Of a stretch of 64,000 nucleotides of DNA, positions 45,744 to 56,954 are shown piece after piece (the stretch's first letter is position 1; each line of letters begins with the position of its first letter). The DNA is from a virus. The notes under the pieces are model-generated. The model was given only the letters and a program-made list of their open reading frames with translations, was not told where the DNA came from and searched no databases. A program made the position numbers and the translations under genes. Location of the stretch: IMG/VR virus record IMGVR_UViG_3300042350_004191, positions 146,587-210,586 of that record; one strand, written 5' to 3'.

Positions 45744-45828
45744 GGAAGCGTACTCAAGCGGCTTAAGAGAACTGTCTACTAAACAGTCGAACAGAAATGT
45801 TCCGTGAGTTCGAATCTCACCGCTTCCG
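45744..45828 (+). tRNA. tRNA-Ser, apparent anticodon ACU
   Basis: 85 bases with a 7-bp acceptor (GGAAGCG/CGCTTCC), D-arm with GG, anticodon stem ACTGT/ACAGT, a long class II variable arm (GAACA-GAAA-TGTTC), T-loop TTCGAAT and discriminator G, all as in serine tRNAs. The loop CTACTAA gives anticodon ACU at 45778-45780 in place of the usual GCU. CCA is not encoded. Confidence 0.88.
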
Positions 45829-51468: not shown

Positions 51469-51540
51469 AGCCCCTGTAGAGATTTGCGCTCTACTCTCCC
51501 GATTACAAATCGGGTGCATCGCTATCTATGCTTCAAGGGC
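51469..51540 (-). tRNA. tRNA-Thr (UGU) with unusual T-loop
   Basis: 72 bases; acceptor GCCCTTG/CAGGGGC with one G-U pair, anticodon stem CCCGA/TCGGG with loop TTTGTAA (UGU). The T-arm stem TAGAG/CTCTA encloses CGCAAAT where TTCRAAT is expected. Confidence 0.82.
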
Positions 51541-51796: not shown

Positions 51797-52381
51797 TTAT
51801 TTGTATAAATTTAGATACTTCTCGTAATTTTTCAAGTATTCATTTTTAGGTAAAAAAACTTTTGGCATTTTTCCATAAATTTTTTTATTTTGATACGGAA
51901 ACGGATACCATTTTTTATCTCTATAAGTTGCCCAATACGACAAAATATACGCATTCGCTTTTTGAATGTATGTTTCTTTATCAAATGGAATTTTATATTT
52001 TATATATTTTTTAACAGTTCTTATTTCACAATCAAGTTCCAATAAAATTGCGCTATTAATAGATTTTAATAGGTTTTTTTCTTTTATATTTTCACCCTTT
52101 AACCATTTATCTAAAGAATCTATCGGGTCTGAATTTTTAACCCATAAAGATTTTTTATCTAAAAATTGGTCCATGTGACAAGATTCATGAATAAGAATAG
52201 AAATCCATTCAGATTCTTTTTTGTTTACCGATGCAGCCAAAGTTGTTTCATCAAAAAAACCACTACATTCGATCTGTTCATTAAGTCGAATGGTTTTTTC
52301 AGCAACCAAACTAAGATTAATTTTGTTTTTGATACAAGTGACAGCTATATCACCTAATAAGTTTTTAAGATTGTTTTTCAT
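51797..52381 (-). CDS. putative zinc metallopeptidase (HExxH), 194 aa
   Basis: HESCHMDQF at about residue 64-72 is a zinc-binding helix. A later LLELDCE (about 113-119) could give the third ligand, as in gluzincin-type folds. No signal peptide, so it is probably cytoplasmic. It overlaps the upstream gene by 17 bases. Substrate unknown. Confidence 0.62.
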   Translation of the reverse strand: MKNNLKNLLGDIAVTCIKNKINLSLVAEKTIRLNEQIECSGFFDETTLAASVNKKESEWISILIHESCHMDQFLDKKSLWVKNSDPIDSLDKWLKGENIKEKNLLKSINSAILLELDCEIRTVKKYIKYKIPFDKETYIQKANAYILSYWATYRDKKWYPFPYQNKKIYGKMPKVFLPKNEYLKNYEKYLNLYK

Positions 52382-52843: not shown

Positions 52844-53941
52844 CTATAATTTGTCAGAAATGTCAAAGTATTCTTTTATCAAAGTTATATATTGTTTTTT
52901 ATTCGGTTCTTTATTATCCAATAAATTAAAAACTAAAGAAGAATATTCTGATTTGTAATTTTGTAAAATAGCTTCGGCTTGTTCTTTTCTGGTTTCATAT
53001 TTTTGAATGACCAAAACAAATCTTTTCATTTTATCAATCGCTGTTTTAACCTTTTCACTCGCTTCCACCAATTTAAGGATTTGTGAGGATAACTGTTCGG
53101 CAATTTCATAATCAAAATTTTTCTCTATAATATCATAAAAATCTTGATAATTTGGCATGTTGTTATCAACATAATATTCAATCAAATTATTTTCAGAACT
53201 TAATTGAGACTTTATTTTATGGAGAAAACAGTACCAGTCTGATTTAATTTTAATTTTATTTTGATTATTGTTATAGCTTACTACTATTCCCTCTTTACCT
53301 TTCCAGTCTTTTATAAGTTTAGAAATTTCCAAGAGACTTTGGTTGTCCTCGAATTTGTAATGTTTAGGTGTTGGAGGGTTTCCAATAGCTTGTTTAATTT
53401 CTTCTAATGCTGCTAAAGGTAACATTTTTAATGTATCTTTATCTACCGCACCTAAAAAACAAAAATCAACATCTTGGGGTCTTATAACAATAACATTATT
53501 AGGAGTTACAATTTCAAACAATAAAGAAAGTTTGGAATCGAAAGGAAAATATTCTAAAATTTTAGGATATTTTTCTGGTAAAAGTTCAAAGTCTTTCCAG
53601 TTTTCTTGGGTCAGATAAGAAGCAGTTCCTCTGGTTCTCATGTTAAATCGACCATTTACATAATCACATATTACAAGAGAACCATCTATTTTTTCTTCGA
53701 CATACCAAGTAAATTTTTCTGGATCTGGATAACAATCTGGTTTTTCCCCTAAATTAAAAAATTTAGGAAAACCTGAAGATAATACATAACCTTCTTTATC
53801 TACGATTAAAGAGCGATAAATTAAATTTTCTGCATTCCATTCAGCATCTATTTTTGGGATTATTAAATACGAAGAAATGCCACAAAATTCGTGTTCATAT
53901 AAACCAAAACCCTTATCTGGATCTGGTAATTTAACTTTCAT
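52844..53941 (-). CDS. RNA ligase (T4 Rnl1-like)
   Basis: 365 residues. The nucleotidyltransferase motif I is EEKIDGSLVI (about 92-101), preceded by the family's SSGFPKFFNLGE segment. Motif III/IIIa-like LLFEIVTPNN is near 147, motif IV EGIVV near 223 and motif V KIKSDWY near 235. The C-terminal domain is helical. It would seal RNA ends such as cleaved tRNA anticodon loops. It is the last gene of a tight set with a kinase and a phosphatase. Confidence 0.85.
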   Translation of the reverse strand: MKVKLPDPDKGFGLYEHEFCGISSYLIIPKIDAEWNAENLIYRSLIVDKEGYVLSSGFPKFFNLGEKPDCYPDPEKFTWYVEEKIDGSLVICDYVNGRFNMRTRGTASYLTQENWKDFELLPEKYPKILEYFPFDSKLSLLFEIVTPNNVIVIRPQDVDFCFLGAVDKDTLKMLPLAALEEIKQAIGNPPTPKHYKFEDNQSLLEISKLIKDWKGKEGIVVSYNNNQNKIKIKSDWYCFLHKIKSQLSSENNLIEYYVDNNMPNYQDFYDIIEKNFDYEIAEQLSSQILKLVEASEKVKTAIDKMKRFVLVIQKYETRKEQAEAILQNYKSEYSSLVFNLLDNKEPNKKQYITLIKEYFDISDKL

Positions 53942-53943
53942 AA

Positions 53944-54354
53944 TTAAAAGTCTTCAACTCTAAAAAACTCTCTTCTATTTTTCATTTTTTCCACAACTTC
54001 TTGAGGAACATCGTGAATATTTTTATATTCAGTTGTTAAGTGTTCGATTATGATGTTATATCCATGTTTTTTGGCTAATTCAATATAAGGCTTTGCTTCT
54101 TTTTTGGTTGTCATAGTATTAGAAACAATAACAGCCTCACCTAATTCCATGGCCTTTTCTGTTGCTTTTCTGCACCAAGAATGACATTCGCCTAATTTTT
54201 TAGGAGAAAACCAGTAATCACCATTACGATTGATCATCAACATATCAGCTTCATAATGATGCCTAATACCTTTTTCGTGCATTAATTTTTTAGCGCGAGT
54301 AGTTTTACCTGCGCCAGAATGTCCAGTTATCAAATATAATAATTTTTGTTTCAT
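53944..54354 (-). CDS. P-loop polynucleotide kinase-like protein
   Basis: 136 residues. Walker A GHSGAGKTT (11-19), an ADML segment near 36, KKLGECHSWCRKAT near 52-65, and VSNTMTT near 77-83. This is the small AAA_33/zeta-type kinase pattern shared with T4 Pnk N-terminal and bacterial Pnkp kinase domains. It would phosphorylate 5'-OH RNA ends. It is linked by 2 bases to the ligase gene and overlaps the phosphatase gene by 4 bases. Confidence 0.75.
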   Translation of the reverse strand: MKQKLLYLITGHSGAGKTTRAKKLMHEKGIRHHYEADMLMINRNGDYWFSPKKLGECHSWCRKATEKAMELGEAVIVSNTMTTKKEAKPYIELAKKHGYNIIIEHLTTEYKNIHDVPQEVVEKMKNRREFFRVEDF

Positions 54355-55049
54355 ATTCTATACTCCCATATTTCGTTAATATTTAAAAGTTTGTGAAAAC
54401 AGTCATTTATTTCCTCTGACCAACTGCTATGAAAATGCCCATAACAATGTATCTTGGGTCTGCAAATAGCAAACAATTGATCCATTTTGCTTCTTTCTTC
54501 TAATAAATCAGAGATTAAATTTTTATCTTCCTTGGACCAACCATAAACTATTTCATTAAACTTTTGAGGAAAACAATATGAAGGTGCTGTGTGAGTAATT
54601 AAAAAATCTACCTTTTCACATTTATCAGGCTGATAGTCAACTTTTTCCCCAGACCAATATGATACACCTTCTCTGCGAGCCAGTCTATCAATAGAAGTTG
54701 CACCGCCTATAAATTGAATTTTTTTATCACCATATTGAGCTACTGTATAATCTTCTATTAATTCAAAATTACTCAGAACAACTCTGTTATCGCCTTTAAA
54801 GTAAGAAGGGTCTGAATGGTTTCCTCTTATACTCAGATAATTTATATTTTTTTCTTTAAACTTATCATTTAAAGATTCAAATTGTTTCATCTGTTGATCT
54901 TTTGGAGAAAACCCTTCACCACCATCACCGACATGAATTAAATAACAATCTCTTATATCGTAGTTATTGATATAAAAAAATACTTCATACCAATTACCAT
55001 GGGTATCGCCTAAAACGTAGATAGGAAGAAATGAATCTAAAATTTTCAC
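54351..55049 (-). CDS. calcineurin-type metallophosphoesterase (Pnkp phosphatase-like)
   Basis: 232 residues. All binuclear-metal motifs are present: GDTHGNW (about 14-20), VGDGGEG, IRGNHSD, LITHTAP and YGHFHSSW near the C terminus. Bacterial Pnkp uses this fold to remove 2',3'-cyclic or 3' phosphates before ligation. It starts with GTG on a predicted leaderless transcript and heads the RNA-repair operon. Confidence 0.82.
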   Translation of the reverse strand: MKILDSFLPIYVLGDTHGNWYEVFFYINNYDIRDCYLIHVGDGGEGFSPKDQQMKQFESLNDKFKEKNINYLSIRGNHSDPSYFKGDNRVVLSNFELIEDYTVAQYGDKKIQFIGGATSIDRLARREGVSYWSGEKVDYQPDKCEKVDFLITHTAPSYCFPQKFNEIVYGWSKEDKNLISDLLEERSKMDQLFAICRPKIHCYGHFHSSWSEEINDCFHKLLNINEIWEYRI

Positions 55050-55055
55050 CCATCA

Positions 55056-55084
55056 TTTATATCAGATAATTGGTAGCGTGTCAA
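55056..55084 (-). promoter_or_regulatory. RNA-repair operon promoter, leaderless GTG
   Basis: TTGACA, 17-base spacer, TATAAA; the GTG start follows 6 bases after the -10 box. Confidence 0.68.
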
Positions 55085-55294: not shown

Positions 55295-55551
55295 TTTATG
55301 ATATTTAAAAACACTGGGGTTTGTTCTCCTACATAGGCTCCCTGAACATTAAACTCGAAATATTCTTCAGCTTCCTCTTCGGACATGTCTTTCATTAATT
55401 CTTTGATACAAAGTGACCTATCATAGATTGCTATAGGTGTTCTAAACTGCCAACCTATACCAACAAAAGCTTTTTCAAAACCATCAGCCAATAATACTGT
55501 TTCATCTTCAGATAAAACATTTTTAATTTGATTTTTAATTTTTTTATTCAT
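55291..55551 (-). CDS. conserved phage hypothetical protein, 86 aa
   Basis: The pattern LADGFEKAFVGIGWQFRTPI, then CIKELM and MSEEEAEEYFEFNVQGAY, is common to small phage proteins of unknown function. It is coupled to the phosphoesterase gene upstream (4-base overlap). Confidence 0.72.
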   Translation of the reverse strand: MNKKIKNQIKNVLSEDETVLLADGFEKAFVGIGWQFRTPIAIYDRSLCIKELMKDMSEEEAEEYFEFNVQGAYVGEQTPVFLNIIK

Positions 55552-56234
55552 TTGCTAAAAGGAGTTGAAGCATTACCATCATGATGATCAGTTTTAAATT
55601 TTGATTTATTACGCATAATAGTTGCTATTTCACCATAGGTTAGTGGGTATGGATTGACCTCTACGGATACTTCCAAGTTAGTTCCACCGTTATTGACATA
55701 CATACGTCCTAGTTCGCTGTTTGTAAGAGAACCGTGGACATGACTAAAAAGCATCCAAGAACCCTTTCCTGCACCATTCCAAGACAAAACCGGATAGTGG
55801 CACATGACAATAGGTTGACCATTAATATATGCTTCCAAATAGTTTGGAACAAATATTACTTCTTTATGATAACCATCAATATAAAGTGTATTATCTTTGA
55901 TACTTTCAAATGCTTGTTTCCAACCCGCTGTGTGATTTCCAGACATGATAAACAAACGCTGAAACTTTAAACGGCGCATGAGCTTTGTAAATTCTTCTAG
56001 TCCACCATAACCAAACATGGTGTCACCAAGAAGAAATCCAATAGTTTTATCTGATGCTTTACTATTCCAGTTTAAAACAATAGCTTCATCATGCTCCTGT
56101 ACAGAATCAAAACCTCTGCGTTTCCAAATAGGGATATCCCACTTTGGATCGTGATGCCAGTGCAAGCAACCCCAAAAAAGAATTTCGTGGTTCTTTGCTT
56201 CTTGGCGTACATAATTATAAAATAGACCCTTCAT
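55548..56234 (-). CDS. metallophosphoesterase, second copy
   Basis: 228 residues, calcineurin fold: WGCLHWHHD (metal site 1), LLGDTMFG (bridging Asp), MSGNHTAGW, CHYPVLSW and FSHVHGS. It is distinct in sequence from the RNA-repair phosphatase. Relatives are broad phage phosphoesterases of unknown substrate (nucleic acid, cyclic or dinucleotide). It overlaps the upstream AbrB-like gene by 20 bases. Confidence 0.8.
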   Translation of the reverse strand: MKGLFYNYVRQEAKNHEILFWGCLHWHHDPKWDIPIWKRRGFDSVQEHDEAIVLNWNSKASDKTIGFLLGDTMFGYGGLEEFTKLMRRLKFQRLFIMSGNHTAGWKQAFESIKDNTLYIDGYHKEVIFVPNYLEAYINGQPIVMCHYPVLSWNGAGKGSWMLFSHVHGSLTNSELGRMYVNNGGTNLEVSVEVNPYPLTYGEIATIMRNKSKFKTDHHDGNASTPFSK

Positions 56235-56555: not shown

Positions 56556-56954
56556 TTAAATCTTTGGTAAAAATTTAGCAGTAGTATTGTTTTTATCTTG
56601 ACCCCAATCTACTAATAAAACATCAATCTTTGCCATTATACAAAGAGTGCAAACTTCAACACTGTCATCAATATGAAGTTCACTTTTGAGTTGTTTTAAA
56701 AATGGAACTTTATTTGTTCCTTCTGTGCATACAATTGATTTAATAGGAATTTTATATCCTTTACAGAAATCATTTACTTGTTCTTTGTTTGACCAATTTC
56801 TAAAAGTTACTATATGAATCTCAGATCCTTTTTTGTGTTGATCCATAAGATAGTTAATCACCCTTGGAACAGGCGTTAATGTTTCACCACCCCAAGCACC
56901 GTTTGAAGTAGCGGCAATCGTATCATCAAAATCGCAAGTGATTACCTTTTTCAT
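56556..56954 (-). CDS. HAD-family phosphatase
   Basis: 132 residues. Motif I CDFDDTIAA (7-15), motif II IVTFRNW (about 48-54), a lysine in NKVPFLKQL (about 81-89) and motif IV LHIDDSVEV (about 93-101). Small phage HAD proteins include 5' nucleotidases and the phosphatase half of T4 Pnk. The substrate cannot be told. It overlaps the nuclease-like gene upstream by 4 bases. Confidence 0.8.
   Translation of the reverse strand: MKKVITCDFDDTIAATSNGAWGGETLTPVPRVINYLMDQHKKGSEIHIVTFRNWSNKEQVNDFCKGYKIPIKSIVCTEGTNKVPFLKQLKSELHIDDSVEVCTLCIMAKIDVLLVDWGQDKNNTTAKFLPKI

Follow-up and report, generated by a model that had tools for sequence, protein, structure and literature searches.

The DNA analysed here, the terminal 64 kb of a 210,586-base IMG/VR virus record from a large uncultured phage (the window), encodes a kinase (KIN), an RNA ligase (LIG) and two metallophosphoesterases (PE1 and PE2) that, judged by family, motif and neighbourhood evidence, probably form a phage kit of separate proteins for healing and sealing RNA ends, in which two modules are joined. 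The initial annotation had described PE1, KIN and LIG as a split form of the bacterial repair enzyme Pnkp. This finding is real and sensible, and it is too narrow: two recurrent phage RNA-repair modules meet at this locus, which is not a one-off split Pnkp.

Features of the locus and of related loci (positions refer to the window unless a locus name precedes them)
Feature	Position	Strand	Description
PE1	55049-54351	-	Calcineurin-like metallophosphoesterase, GTG start, 232 aa
KIN	54354-53944	-	P-loop polynucleotide-kinase-like protein, 136 aa
LIG	53941-52844	-	Rnl1-family RNA ligase, 365 aa, K84xDG nucleotidyl site
PE2	55548-56234	-	Second metallophosphoesterase, 228 aa, family phrog_547
Promoter-like TTGACA-N17-TATAAA	55056-55084	-	End of -10 box to PE1 GTG, 6 nt
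HAD-like gene	56556-56954		Weak HAD-like match
Putative metallopeptidase	51797-52381		DUF6782/SprT-like
tRNA-Ser	45744-45828		Unusual anticodon ACT; ARAGORN call alone
tRNA	51469-51540		Rfam call alone
PE3	L013:3941-4792, L016:3928-4776, L018:4007-4792, L029:2151-2939		Third metallophosphoesterase, ~280 aa, in near relatives
DUF7831 protein	L016:6071-6463		Between KIN and LIG in near relatives
DUF7831 protein	L136:8634-9032		~1.5 kb downstream of LIG in a PE1-LIG phage

The order and coupling of the three genes were as first described, with PE1 and KIN overlapping by 4 nt (ATGA) and a 2-nt gap between KIN and LIG; they are three ORFs separated by stops, rather than the single polypeptide of Pnkp. 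Their identities as phosphoesterase, P-loop kinase and KxDG ligase are backed by Pfam, PHROGs and active-site motifs. The sequence upstream of PE1 had been called a strong leaderless promoter. Since the pattern TTGACA-N17-TATAAA occurs once in the window where 0.42 occurrences are expected by chance, it proves little alone and we do not retain the word strong; leaderless is plausible, because -10 boxes lying 2-9 nt from starts are enriched in the window. Boxes of at least 10/12 ending at that distance 5' of the start were found for 7 of 69 genes across the whole window, as against 0-3 at other offsets. This mild enrichment of sigma70-like -10 boxes suggests that leaderless or near-leaderless transcripts occur in this phage.

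ARAGORN and Rfam together account for all seven tRNA genes reported for the window, two of them called by one program each. The HAD phosphatase reported nearby corresponds to a gene that is present, with an HAD-like match that is weak. Downstream of the set lies a putative metallopeptidase gene, which stays near LIG in relatives at 42-45% identity. A 24-kb part of the window had no megablast match among described phages.

KIN matches AAA_33 (PF13671, 6e-13) and phrog_2071 (4e-34), and also Zeta_toxin (2e-8, Pfam). When a profile of ten relatives was compared with solved proteins, T4 polynucleotide kinase (1ltq) came first with an E value of 4.8e-9, followed by the kinase domain of Clostridium thermocellum Pnkp (4gp7, 8e-6) and Pnkp1 (4xrp, 1e-5). 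The P-loop K17 and the catalytic-site D37 are invariant in the alignment, so that KIN has both the P-loop and the general-base Asp within a Pnk-like domain. It consists of the kinase domain only, without the fused HAD phosphatase of T4-type Pnkp. Three residues past the catalytic Asp the alignment places Met in KIN, where T4 Pnk and CthPnkp carry an arginine that is required in both kinases, and the lid has an invariant H-x-V-P in place of the T4 arginine pattern, a form that may resemble the kinase domain of animal N4BP2. LIG matches RNA_lig_T4_1 (PF09511, 2e-10) and phrog_562 (2e-43). Its likeness to T4 Rnl1 (2c5u), claimed from the start, is borne out at 1e-8 as a single sequence and 2.4e-30 as a profile. 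The ligase motifs are K84xDG, E143, E217G and K231xK233, of which K84, G87, E143, E217, G218, K231 and K233 are invariant across 11 relatives. Because of these profile matches and motif residues we take KIN and LIG, with good confidence from sequence, as a predicted RNA 5'-kinase and a predicted RNA ligase of the T4 Rnl1 family. PADLOC matches of KIN and PE1 were weak and generic.

PE1 matches Metallophos (PF00149, 4e-9) and phrog_1649 (6e-23). The binuclear metallophosphoesterase motifs DxH, GD, GNH, H and GHxH are all present (D15xH17, D42, N77H78, H153, H205xH207), and the metal ligands are invariant in 26 homologues. Searches of PDB sequences with PE1 or PE2 as single proteins found no real relative. 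A predicted model of PE1 (pLDDT 89) lies, among the folds listed, nearest to phosphodiesterases: Dbr1 ranked first (Z 16.0, rmsd 3.8, 205 residues; again first in Foldseek, 2.5e-8), followed by Rv0805 (Z 15.0), MPPED2, GpdQ and Mre11, with sequence identities to Dbr1 and Rv0805 of 14-18%. Dbr1, the RNA lariat debranching enzyme, works on 2' linkages of RNA, and Rv0805, grouped with SpdA among the 2',3'-cNMP phosphodiesterases, works on 2',3'-cyclic nucleotides; its activity on 2',3'-cNMP is ~150x that on 3',5'-cNMP (PMC4222275). Since a Z gap of 1 is about a tie, the fold suggests a diesterase for RNA-like substrates, and no more. PE1 as a Dbr1 debranching enzyme was ruled out: all 26 aligned homologues have D15 at the first metal-ligand position, where Dbr1 has an invariant Cys that is needed for activity (PMC4176325), and PE1 is much shorter than Dbr1. 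By sequence, PE1 is an unstudied type of phosphoesterase that in related phages goes with the ligase rather than with the kinase.

PE2, which lies 500 bp upstream of the trio and was absent from the first account, belongs to phrog_547 (2e-33), with relatives in 825 phage records. Its closest solved relative is 1xm7 (8e-21 by profile, Z 14.1 by structure). All metallophosphoesterase motifs are present except that the first Asp is Cys23, giving CxH instead of DxH; this change is limited to the clade of the window (W-G-C-L-H), and PE2 relatives in other phages have Asp. PE2 shares the Cys-for-Asp change with Dbr1, although its fold is not close to that of Dbr1. We considered that Cys23 might mark a dead enzyme and dropped this idea, since Dbr1 requires its Cys and the residue need not mean inactivity.

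A split kinase, ligase and phosphoesterase is not peculiar to this phage. KIN relatives occur in 609 phage records, and separate genes for kinase, ligase and phosphoesterase as neighbours are common in phages. We sampled 13 described phages, seeking the three genes within 8 kb of fetched sequence, and found the KIN, PE2 and LIG families as neighbours in all 13, in varying order. Seven of these phages played no part in building the profiles, for which the other six were used (Pseudomonas Amme-3, Aeromonas PAc, Vibrio PS17B-2, Acinetobacter Liucustia, Escherichia FV3 and Vibrio JSF10). In the described phages the genes are annotated 'ATPase', 'phosphoesterase', 'RNA ligase' or hypothetical. At 79 further KIN loci in IMG/VR, found with the KIN alignment and lying outside the profile seeds, PE2 was present within 2.5 kb at 27, LIG at 27 and both at 13, and PE1 at none. 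Searches of whole records showed KIN and PE2 to be jointly present or absent in 11 of 12; in one record (G009) a weak PE2-profile match beside LIG, at the position of PE1, was scored as PE1, and another (G003), possibly partial, lacks LIG while encoding KIN and PE2. A literature search found no functional account of the set, for which a prior description in a 2016 review (10.1093/nar/gkw722) is possible. At four loci of described phages (L004, L009, L225, L227) the KIN/Rnl1/PE2 set adjoins genes for ribose-phosphate pyrophosphokinase and nicotinamide/nicotinate phosphoribosyltransferase, which belong to NAD synthesis, as if RNA repair were linked with the restoration of NAD.

LIG has a different regular neighbour. 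From 44 dereplicated close LIG loci we counted the 32 with at least 2.5 kb of upstream sequence, and 26 of the 32 have PE1 on the strand of LIG and upstream of it, mostly no more than 500 nt away, often at 0-50 nt and sometimes directly abutting. These loci nearly always lack KIN, which is found there only in the window and its near-identical copies. The search for the trio in relatives thus gave a divided answer: PE1-KIN-LIG is restricted to these copies, and PE2, KIN and LIG together are widespread. No polynucleotide kinase was found in most PE1-LIG records, including the 203-kb G006, where none exceeded the cut-off, and the P-loop proteins near LIG at PE1-LIG loci include none resembling a polynucleotide kinase. 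Because most of these records show no kinase, the pair apparently manages there without KIN for the healing of 5'-OH ends, and the PE1-LIG module is apparently able to exist without a kinase; these counts come from HMMs whose seeds were few and which overlook distant members, from loci of which many are contig fragments and from long records of uncertain completeness.

The window is, on this sequence comparison, the meeting point of the PE1-LIG pair and the PE2/KIN set. PE1 linkages are spread across the clade in the LIG tree, and the window groups with KIN-bearing relatives inside this PE1-marked clade. In the nearest KIN-bearing relatives KIN and LIG are 1.3-1.8 kb apart, and PE1 was not found in the entire records of G001-G003. 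The simplest history would be an old PE1-LIG pair to which one subclade added PE2 and KIN, some of its members later losing PE1; the window phage would have retained both modules, with KIN sitting between PE1 and LIG. In near relatives a third metallophosphoesterase (PE3, with PDVHQR...GDWFDS) lies ~210 bp upstream of KIN, at the place that belongs to PE1 in the window. PE3 was not accepted as a member of the set, as it lies upstream of KIN in G001 and G002 but beside the SprT-like gene in G003. A DUF7831 protein is encoded near LIG both in near relatives and in a PE1-LIG phage.

In the repair that we consider probable, a host defence ribonuclease, for example an anticodon nuclease, would cut tRNA or other RNA to leave 2',3'-cyclic phosphate and 5'-OH ends. 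The KIN-linked PE2, the LIG-linked PE1 or both would clear the cyclic or linear phosphate at the 3' side, KIN would phosphorylate the 5'-OH, and LIG would join 5'-phosphate to 3'-OH RNA ends via an enzyme-AMP at K84. tRNA as the likeliest substrate, the reactions catalysed by PE1 and PE2 and the way in which these two share the work are our inference. The repair reading is supported by the seven tRNAs of the window, by the lack of any match to the RtcB and RlaP families in eight records and by the precedent of active Dbr1 for the Cys of PE2. It is weakened by the PE1-LIG records that gave no kinase, by the missing LIG of G003 and by the Met of KIN at the arginine position, and also in that a metallophosphoesterase fold does not fix the substrate and that the activities of all four proteins are predicted.

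The repair kit has to be weighed against the initial reading, in which PE1, KIN and LIG by themselves supply what bacterial Pnkp combines, its activities split over three genes, with PE1 as the 3'-phosphatase. Gene order, coupling and the shared promoter-like site speak for it, as do a KIN without a phosphatase domain of its own and the complete metal ligands of PE1, and part of it holds: there is a Pnk-type kinase and an Rnl1 ligase, encoded by separate genes in one likely unit. The role given to PE1 is not supported: the recurrent partner of KIN is PE2, both in the sampled phages and at the IMG/VR loci, and PE1 pairs with LIG and was seen next to KIN in this phage and its near-identical copies alone. 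LIG is moreover of the Rnl1 and not the Pnkp type, the fold of PE1 is closest to phosphodiesterases, and the frame of three Pnkp activities leaves PE2 unexplained, as it does those PE1-LIG phages whose searched records gave no polynucleotide kinase. We consider it quite unlikely that the trio alone makes up the system. Less credible by far is that KIN is a small AAA_33/zeta-toxin-like kinase acting on something other than RNA and LIG a tail-fibre attachment factor. The Zeta_toxin match of KIN would fit, as would the name 'RNA ligase and tail fiber protein attachment catalyst' borne by many LIG-family records; but this name goes back to T4 Rnl1, whose RNA ligase activity is proven, the top matches of the KIN profile are polynucleotide kinases, and the surroundings (phosphoesterase, HAD-like, dUTPase, SprT-like and tRNA genes) include no recognisable tail gene.

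Two further proposals concern PE1, and we regard each as possible but improbable. PE1, and perhaps PE2, could be a counter-defence phosphodiesterase that destroys host alarm nucleotides, its position reflecting the clustering of anti-defence genes. Calcineurin-like and other phosphodiesterases of jumbo phages have been proposed to target defence nucleotides (PMC7824862); the fold of PE1 is near that of cyclic-nucleotide phosphodiesterases, there are PE1-LIG phages without a kinase found, and no ligase lies beside the PE1 relatives of those Mycobacterium and Streptomyces phages that were examined. What stands against a role apart from the ligase is the tight pairing with LIG, on the same strand and upstream in each of the 26 loci and often within 50 nt. 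The other proposal, which we advance tentatively, is that PE1 and LIG form a kinase-independent pair for repair or processing of non-classic RNA damage, in which a Dbr1/Rv0805-like diesterase would prepare the RNA 3' or 2' end at damage other than the 5'-OH/2',3'-cyclic break. With KIN and PE2 added, the window would then cover two kinds of break.

The probable repair kit resembles known systems in part. Like T4, where Pnkp and Rnl1 counter PrrC of E. coli, the window has separate kinase and Rnl1 ligase genes; unlike T4, where the 3'-phosphatase is an HAD domain fused to the kinase, it has a stand-alone kinase, with two calcineurin-like proteins as candidates for the phosphatase. With bacterial Pnkp (C. 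thermocellum; Pnkp1-Rnl-Hen1, PMC4411300) it shares a Pnk-type kinase, a calcineurin-like phosphoesterase and a KxDG ligase, and differs in having separate proteins, an Rnl1-type ligase and phosphoesterases that may be of another type. Vequinta-, Seuna-, Pakpuna-, Phapecocta-, Otago-, Saclay-, Thalassa- and Jesfedecavirus phages share the KIN, PE2 and Rnl1 families as neighbours, and no PE1 above chance scores was found beside KIN or LIG in them. In six aligned described phages the ligases, at ~300 aa, are shorter than in the window and carry KxNG where LIG has KxDG; their PE2 proteins have DxH where that of the window has CxH. The general scheme of such repair has already been proposed for jumbo phages: the survey by Iyer et al. 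2021 (PMC7824862) predicts that Rnl1, kinase and phosphoesterases jointly treat cut tRNA, and notes calcineurin-like phosphatases in few phages. The combination described there, an ATP-dependent RNA ligase with a healing kinase and a phosphoesterase, is found among the families of the window; the passages of the survey consulted here describe neither PE1-LIG nor KIN-PE2-Rnl1 neighbourhoods.

In several hundred phages with sequenced genomes these genes go by names such as 'ATPase' and 'phosphoesterase'. The PE1-LIG phages raise the question of which RNA breaks a ligase and a phosphodiesterase could mend without a kinase. When the genes are recognised as sets that heal RNA ends, at least two families, phrog_2071 and phrog_547, acquire a function that can be put to the test, with the phrog_1649-like PE1 as a third candidate, and the sets offer new enzymes acting on RNA ends.
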